Below are positions 10,524-11,610 of a DNA stretch of 24,876 bases, in pieces (positions within the stretch are counted from its first letter, which is position 1; each line of letters begins with the position of its first letter). The notes under the pieces were generated by a model. It saw only the letters and a list, made by a program, of their open reading frames with translations. It did no database searches and was not told the DNA's origin. The DNA is from a virus, in the IMG/VR virus record IMGVR_UViG_3300012954_001618, positions 1 to 24,876 of that record. One strand, 5' to 3'. The position numbers and the translations under genes were made by a program.

Positions 10524-11522
10524 TTATTGACTTTGTCTTGCTCTAATCATTGCAAGAATGTCTTCTGCTTTACCTTCAGTTTCTGTTGACTGTGCAGCAG
10601 GTGCTTCTGCTTGGGGAGCAGGAGCAGTCTCAGCTGGTGCAGTTTCTGCTACCGGAGCTGGTGCTGGAGTTTCTTCAGTTCTTGAAGTGGCAGTGCCGTT
10701 TGATGATGATTTGTTAGGATCACCAGTTCTAGCACTCATGCCTGCTGGACGGAAATACTGTGAAAATTTCTCTTCATCATATGCTTCTCCGTCGACACTT
10801 GCTTCAAACATTTCCTGCATTACCTTGACTTCAACGTCGGAAGGCTTTTTAGGAAGAAAGTCGCTCAGATTGAACAACCCGTTTGTATTAACAGCATTCA
10901 TTTCTGAATCACCAAGCGGACGTTCTCTACGTGCCCAATTGGAAGTACTGTAATCTGCGTAACCACCTTTACTTGTTTTGTTAAGACGGAAATCAACACC
11001 AGCAGTATAATCTGTTGGCAGTTCTTCCATATCAGGATCCATTAGTGCCTGTTTAATAATTTGGAAAATTTGTGGTCCAATTATAAAACGTCTAATCGGA
11101 TTTTCTGGAGTAGTATCCTCTGATAAAGGATTGTCTACTACAAAACCTTGGAAAAGATAAGAACGCTTTTTCCAATATTTGCGACCCATGTCTTCTAGAC
11201 TAGGATCTTTAAACCAACCCCTAACTTCATTAAGGATGTTACAAGTATCTCCATACATTTCCATACATGGGATTTGTACTTGTACAGGACGACTATCAGT
11301 CTGTCCTTTGATTCCGGAAAACGGAAGTTTGATCATCAAACGTTCTTTCCAAAAGAATGTATTTGAATCATCTCCATCAGGAAGGAATCGGAATGTTGCA
11401 CTCTCACCTTCTTTAATATTCCAGAATGGGTAAATTGCGTTGTCGCCGCCGCCTGTGTTTGAACCACCTTGTCGTGATTCTTGCTCTTTGAGCTTTGCTC
11501 TTATTTCAGCTAATGATGCCAT
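10524..11522 (-). CDS. 32: gp32 single-stranded DNA-binding protein
   Basis: gp32 coats ssDNA at the replication fork and during recombination. The protein is 332 residues (T4 gp32 is 301). It has a short basic N-terminal region (AEIRAKLKEQESR) like the T4 cooperativity domain. A core follows with aromatic and basic residues (YPFWNIKEGESATFRFLPDG at 31-50, then WFKDPSL and RKYWKKRSYLFQGFV). The zinc-loop region keeps only C86 and C94 (IPCMEMYGDTC) of the T4 His-Cys3 set, so the metal site is altered or absent. A long Ala/Pro/Glu-rich linker (about 282-316) leads to the end that would bind partner proteins. It has a strong ribosome site (AAGGAGG) and its own sigma70-like promoter. The next genes are uvsX and uvsY, its functional partners. 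Confidence 0.93.
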   Translation of the reverse strand: MASLAEIRAKLKEQESRQGGSNTGGGDNAIYPFWNIKEGESATFRFLPDGDDSNTFFWKERLMIKLPFSGIKGQTDSRPVQVQIPCMEMYGDTCNILNEVRGWFKDPSLEDMGRKYWKKRSYLFQGFVVDNPLSEDTTPENPIRRFIIGPQIFQIIKQALMDPDMEELPTDYTAGVDFRLNKTSKGGYADYSTSNWARRERPLGDSEMNAVNTNGLFNLSDFLPKKPSDVEVKVMQEMFEASVDGEAYDEEKFSQYFRPAGMSARTGDPNKSSSNGTATSRTEETPAPAPVAETAPAETAPAPQAEAPAAQSTETEGKAEDILAMIRARQSQ

Positions 11523-11526
11523 AATA

Positions 11527-11573
11527 TGCCTCCTTTAAATTGCCTATAGCTTTGTGCCTGTTTATGTAGCACA
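11527..11573 (-). promoter_or_regulatory. gp32 mRNA leader with three AGGCA repeats and a small hairpin
   Basis: On the minus strand the leader holds AGGCA three times at exact 14-base intervals (11555-11559, 11541-11545, 11527-11531). The last copy overlaps the ribosome site GGAGGC. Just upstream, TGTGC (11569-11573) can pair with GCACA (11553-11557) around an 11-nt loop, and the second arm shares bases with the first AGGCA. T4 gp32 represses its own translation by binding a structured leader; this region is a candidate for an equivalent operator. The function is inferred. Confidence 0.4.
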
Positions 11574-11581
11574 TGTTATAC

Positions 11582-11610
11582 ATACTACACAATTATATAG
11601 CAGAAGTCAA
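11582..11610 (-). promoter_or_regulatory. Sigma70-like promoter for gp32
   Basis: On the minus strand a -35 box TTGACT (11605-11610) is followed, after a 17-base spacer, by a -10 box TAGTAT (11582-11587), which predicts a start near 11575 and a leader of about 53 bases before the gp32 ATG. TTGACT matches five of six consensus bases and TAGTAT four of six. This would let gp32 and the uvsX-uvsY genes be read by the host polymerase early, independently of the late genes upstream. Confidence 0.5.

Follow-up and report, generated by a model that had tools for sequence, protein, structure and literature searches.

The question raised by this locus is whether three short repeats in front of a phage gene for a single-strand DNA binding protein (SSB) belong to an RNA element through which the protein controls its own synthesis. 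The window, that is, the whole stretch of 24,876 nucleotides analysed here, comes from a marine phage, and all leader coordinates given below are on its minus strand. The initial annotation placed AGGCA at three sites in the leader of this gene, and these were recovered exactly: copy 1 at 11555–11559, copy 2 at 11541–11545, and copy 3 at 11527–11531. Copy 3 was also said to overlap the ribosome site, and it is indeed fused to the Shine-Dalgarno sequence AAGGAGG (11529–11535), while copy 1 forms part, as described, of the 3' side of a short hairpin (UGUGC/GCACA). The results presented below suggest that the leader is a conserved cis-acting RNA element through which the SSB probably represses translation of its own mRNA, in the manner of T4 gp32.

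The gene (10524–11522, minus strand) encodes a protein of 332 amino acids. This protein is matched by the Pfam gp32 family (PF08804; E = 8.5e-5, under the family's curated cut-off) and by PHROG 1192 (SSB; E = 3.3e-65). A sequence search of the PDB with the protein gave no match. A Foldseek search with its AlphaFold model (mean pLDDT 71.6) returned six PDB matches at E ≤ 0.001, all of which are the gp32 core of RB69 or T4 (2a1k, 8gme, 1gpc, 2atq). The protein is therefore a gp32-type SSB, in support of the name first given to the gene. Inspection of the translated SSB found neither the T4 gp32 zinc finger (Cys-X3-His-X5-Cys-X2-Cys) nor the LAST motif, as defined in PMC535899, and this counts against an autoregulatory operator. 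A T4-type terminase gene lies upstream of the SSB gene, and UvsX- and UvsY-like genes follow it downstream (Pfam, PHROG), an order found too in RaK2-like and related jumbo phages. From the SSB stop codon to the UvsX-like start there is a nine-base inverted repeat, GCCCAGTGC/GCACTGGGC (10514–10506 and 10460–10452, minus strand), enclosing about 45 nt.

Taken singly, the leader of the window is weak evidence, as the best-repeated 5-mer seen three times inside its 60 nt has P = 0.070 and AGGCA was picked after the fact. Block-wise dinucleotide shuffling of the window (300 replicates) produced AGGCA three times within 40 nt in 11 cases and a triple with equal steps within 60 nt in one. Conservation was assessed in a close set of 76 complete leaders, made up of the window and 75 of its 80 nearest relatives (5 of the 81 leaders were dropped because their contigs are too short), and in a broad set of 251 unique SSB leaders from four further viral scans. 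Each viral scan contributed its best 80 matches only, so the leaders are a sample rather than a census. At least three AGGC within approximately 66 nt of the start are present in all 76 complete leaders of the window and its nearest relatives among the best 80, and three AGGCA in 65 of them; the check on close relatives that accompanied the initial annotation thus came out in favour of the repeats. The exact 14-base step, which had been offered as the signal, did not survive the same comparison, as a 14/14 spacing was tallied by eye in 6 of the 76 leaders (window included; best 80 relatives) and found in 7 of 105 anchored leaders among the matches listed, with median steps of 16 and 15. The repeats are conserved in sequence whereas their exact step is not, and a 14-nt periodicity was rejected because steps vary widely among relatives.

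The repeats are also confined to the SSB gene. At least three AGGC occur in the last 75 nt of 140 of the 251 SSB leaders (best 80 matches per scan) and of 2 of 815 control leaders, which come from other genes of these contigs and have mechanical first ATGs as their starts. In the same comparison the mean AGGC count is 2.12 versus 0.215, AGGCA is present in 80% versus 8% of leaders, and GAGGC, the joint of the Shine-Dalgarno and copy 3, in 46% versus 2%. This gene specificity favours the SSB gene's own product as the regulator and argues against a global one. Five leaders (L007, L013, L055, L065, L067) retain the third AGGC though AGGAG is elsewhere or gone, suggesting that this copy is more than a Shine-Dalgarno. 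Nineteen anchored leaders among the matches listed have a gap of 28–41 nt between copies 1 and 2, and a perfect stem of 4–6 bp lies inside the gap in all 19; several of these stems are unrelated in sequence, and 12 of the 19 are significant (P ≤ 0.05 against shuffled gaps). Once the inserted stem is subtracted 13–25 nt remain, as would be expected if selection acted on distance within the folded RNA. The more distant leaders count against an autoregulatory operator, as AGGCA is absent from 48 of 140 unanchored leaders among the matches listed. A search of the leader DNA against named phages gave no near-match. The two exceptions among the control leaders (L006:3862–3936 and L018:2701–2775) both belong to the gene directly downstream of the SSB gene, and each carries three AGGC and a strong hairpin.

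Upstream of the repeats lies a covarying helix of the GUGUAG/CUACAC type, S1, which in the window pairs UUGUGUAG (11585–11592) with CUACAUAA (11562–11569). Relatives form the helix with pairs such as GTGTAG/CTACAC, TGTAGTAG/CTACTACA, CGTATAG/CTATACG, and ATCATATAG/CTGTATGAT. When identical leaders of the close set were merged (76 to 66) and the best helix joining the segment that follows GTR to the upstream segment was scored, the result was 15.44, versus 12.34 (sd 0.27) with the 3' strands swapped. A larger set was obtained by anchoring 115 of the 251 leaders (111 after merging) on TTGA[CT], AGGC, and the complement of GTR; since anchoring demanded all three, numbers from this set prove none of the corresponding features (promoter, first AGGC, S2). 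The S1 score of the 111 anchored leaders is 15.43, versus 12.15 (sd 0.23) after swapping. When swapping was restricted to protein clusters (25, 20, and 15% distance), the controls rose to 12.93, 13.43, and 14.44 but stayed below the observed 15.43 in all 200 trials per level; the maximum among the closest proteins (approximately 85% identical) was 14.98. Shuffles and cluster swaps leave some shared ancestry in these comparisons, which weakens the case for an operator. In a plain MAFFT alignment (A1), several rows of which are visibly shifted, S1 covariation is 0.163 versus 0.122 (sd 0.009; 0/500), and 76.3% of S1 cells are paired, falling to 60% or less after slides of 1–3 columns. Two count measures in the MAFFT alignment are unremarkable (double-change pairs, 102/500; pair types, 133/500).

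A second covarying helix, S2, pairs UGUG (11570–11573, with C11569 added if S1 yields one pair) with CACA (11553–11556), which overlaps copy 1; both covariation and the hairpin fold point to it. When the test was repeated without the demand for complementarity (127 anchored leaders, 108 distinct rows), the matches listed comprised GTG/CAC in 78 rows, GTA/TAC in 12, GTA with both in 1, GTG/TAC in 2, GTA/CAC in 3, and neither in 12, and two of the three GTA/CAC rows (L014, L366) look mis-anchored, with GTGC just upstream. The GTA leaders have the 3' strand of S2 shifted just beyond AGGCA, leaving the motif intact. S3 is a weaker third helix that closes the start codon, pairing GCUAUAG (11544–11550) with UUAUGGC (11518–11524, start codon included) in the minimum free energy fold. 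Pairing of the start codon involves the bases 5' of the second AGGC copy and takes the form CATAG/CTATG in 34 of 77 leaders and ATAA/TTAT in 8 of 77, and the S3 score is 11.57 versus 10.66 (sd 0.12; 0/500, and 0, 0, and 5 of 500 within clusters). The order S1-S2-S1'-S2' is that of an H-type pseudoknot, with medians of 7 bp for S1, 11 nt for the first loop, 0 for the linker, and 7 nt for the second loop; S2 measures 3–4 bp and the S1 loop spans 9–21 nt (10–90% of anchored leaders). There is good support for a conserved, structured RNA leader specific to the SSB gene.

The closest functional parallel is the T4 gene 32 operator, in which a 5' pseudoknot is followed by UUAAA repeats over the ribosome binding site, both of them essential according to PMC535899 and PMC3014915. 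Repression by gp32 is described as proved in T4 and RB69 in PMC535899, and RB49 is reported to be without the T4-type leader element. As read here, the T4 leader runs UGCC-A-GCUAUGA-GGUA-AAGUG-UCAUAGC and then enters the UUAAA repeats. Like the operators of T4, T2, and RB69, the present element sits in a gp32-gene leader and begins with a 5' structure, after which a less structured stretch of repeats runs onto and covers the ribosome site. Unlike them, it has no sequence in common with these operators, its first loop is approximately 11 nt (1 nt in T4), its start codon is closed by S3, and it overlaps a sigma70-type promoter. UUAAA or UAAA repeats do not occur in the window leader, where AGGCA takes their place, and repression, proved in T4 and RB69, is putative here. 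In the gene 32 leader of Mosigvirus mar005p1 (L382, RB69-type), 4 nt separate the end of a TATAAATA box from the T4-type pseudoknot, which is where late transcription should therefore begin; this box is placed as the late box is before S1 in the present leaders. Since the plan, the gene, and the promoter placement are common while the sequence and the UUAAA repeats are not, the element was filed as working like the T4 operator and not as a member of it.

The best reading is consequently an operator that would be built like that of T4 gene 32 in unrelated sequence, with a 5' pseudoknot and single-stranded repeats over the ribosome binding site. The initial annotation had proposed a different solution to the same autoregulation. 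The overall plan, a 5' structure plus repeats over the ribosome binding site, agrees with the T4 operator, but the solution is less different than claimed and is better described as the same architecture in other letters, because the main conserved feature is the pair of covarying 5' helices, which had been missed. Autoregulation is the most likely function given the gene specificity and the T4 precedent; we infer the step from structure to repression, as we do the start sites and the pseudoknot itself. Excess SSB would nucleate at the 5' structure and spread across the single-stranded AGGCA region, blocking the ribosome, and when replication exposes single-stranded DNA the SSB would depart from the RNA and translation could resume. 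The literature covered (gp32 leaders, pseudoknots, and SSB autoregulation beyond T4 and RB69, with few subscription papers) yielded no account or binding test of this leader. A leader of the T4 plan in unrelated letters is conserved across many environmental phages, and AGGCA offers a short, specific RNA motif for asking how a sequence-indifferent SSB picks one mRNA. The covarying helices are open to testing by compensatory changes.

Known RNA families were compared as well. An Rfam scan of the window, the leader, and 10 loci found no family above its gathering cut-off, and the 10 loci had no match up to E = 0.5. The ribosomal S15 leader (RF00114) is an autoregulatory pseudoknot over the ribosome binding site of a different gene, and the window leader scores 11.3 bits against it (E = 2.7; gathering score 39.5 bits). 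The STAXI RNA motif (RF01728) resembles the present element in consisting of pseudoknot repeats near ssb genes, as stated in PMC2864571; it differs in being enterobacterial, in having tandem pseudoknots with UUCG loops, and in not being such a leader. A general rule of short repeats in SSB leaders is not claimed. When 24 gp32 leaders were examined one by one (72 tests), a repeated 6- or 7-mer reached nominal P < 0.02 only in those of Mosigvirus, KVP40, P-SSM4, and Atu_ph07, and the UUAAA-type repeats of T4 (5-mer P = 0.246), those of the window (0.070), and RaK2-like leaders that are repetitive by eye did not stand out. The repeats concerned are TAAATA x4 in Mosigvirus (L382), ACAATA x4 in KVP40 (L375), CAATAC x3 in P-SSM4 (L377), and CACAATT x3 in Atu_ph07 (L085), at nominal P of 0.004–0.014.

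The promoter region suggests a different use of the same helices. A -35-like TTGACT (11605–11610; TTGA[CT] is present in all 111 anchored leaders by construction) is separated by a 17-nt spacer from a -10-like TAGTAT (11582–11587) that overlaps the 5' strand of S1. A late-type box, NTAARTA, is found in 79 of the 111 anchored leaders, its last A mostly 3–5 nt before the first S1 pair, and TAnnnT at -10 spacing in 106; the two occur together in 77. The window has a degenerate counterpart, CTATATA (11594–11600), and this departure from consensus counts against the autoregulatory operator. In T4 the late box sits one turn before the start, its T at -13 and its extent -13 to -6 (PMC2988020), and by this geometry S1 should be where late transcripts start. 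The RNA expected from the overlapping sigma70-type promoter would be shorter and lack half of S1. It is accordingly conceivable, though not favoured, that the leader is a transcript-start switch rather than a static pseudoknot, promoter choice setting the strength with which the SSB represses its mRNA: an extended S1 hairpin would free copy 1 in late-type RNA starting at S1, while sigma70-type RNA, lacking the S1 5' strand, would fold S2 and hide copy 1. The overlap of the 5' strand with the -10 in class I leaders fits such a switch, as does nested folding, in which GGCA of copy 1 is paired with a probability of 0.90 in short-type and 0.34 in long-type RNA, and extended S1 uses up GTR, the 5' strand of S2, in 78 of 86 long-type RNAs. 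This last preference for extended S1 over S2 also tells against the pseudoknotted operator. Against the switch, folding without pseudoknots cannot weigh a pseudoknot, the start sites are predicted, and S2 of the GTA leaders pairs beyond AGGCA, so that hiding of copy 1 would not be universal. In its specific, promoter-coded form, the early-type -10 would double as a strand of the 5' helix, early RNA hiding the first AGGCA and late RNA exposing all three or forming the full pseudoknot; this too is conceivable rather than favoured. If true, the phage would alter the sensitivity of SSB mRNA to self-repression by a change of promoter during infection. Late-type boxes reading GATAAATA also lie just upstream of two other window genes (23802–23795 and 24539–24532, minus strand).

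The same overlap of S1 with the -10 could mean that S1 is a feature of the DNA, an inverted repeat bound by a transcription factor, with AGGCA as a separate translational feature. The class II leaders (24 of 111 anchored), in which the best S1 5' strand is placed between -35 and -10, suit this explanation, as their arms are long perfect dyads wholly inside the promoter spacer and show no excess of G.U (3 G.U and 3 A.C in 20 arm pairs). No recognised promoter would transcribe that strand, and these leaders thus count against the autoregulatory operator. A DNA operator is nevertheless unlikely. With arms picked by Watson-Crick pairs alone, the mismatches number 14 G.U and 8 A.C over all classes (43 arm pairs, 7 positions) and 13 G.U and 3 A.C at the six core positions of class I (36 arm pairs); RNA tolerates G.U, and such a preference over A.C would not be expected of a DNA operator, suggesting that S1 acts as RNA. 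Furthermore, the arm spacing varies (loop 9–21 nt) without helical phasing, pairing persists although the arms change freely in sequence, and more distant leaders hold a compact hairpin in this place, immediately following the late box (mean z -2.60 for the 95 out of 140 unanchored leaders that have a box). In the class II leaders L015, L020, L027, L031, L046, L049, L051, L058, L069, L077, and L080, the S1-like arms are long, reaching TTGTTTGTAG/CTACAAACAA.

A hairpin directly after the late box is found in the anchored leaders too (mean z -2.45, n = 84), and its presence in both sets is what would be expected if the 5' structure served mRNA stability and the AGGC copies were ribosome standby or Shine-Dalgarno-like sites, with no repression by the SSB. 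AGG is able to pair with the anti-Shine-Dalgarno sequence, in line with a standby role. This explanation is improbable, as it accounts neither for the conserved GCA after AGG nor for the confinement to the SSB gene and the covariation of S2 and S3, even though T4 gene 32 mRNA is described as the most stable T4 mRNA in PMC3014915. Chance repetition within one leader, to which P = 0.070 might have pointed, deserves almost no credence after the counts of 76/76 in the nearest complete leaders and 140/251 versus 2/815 in the broad set (best 80 per scan), and chance is upheld for the exact 14-nt step alone. Immediately after the late box, L348, L328, L352, and leaders like them carry a 10-bp hairpin and then a T run, an arrangement that resembles an intrinsic terminator placed right where the transcript begins.
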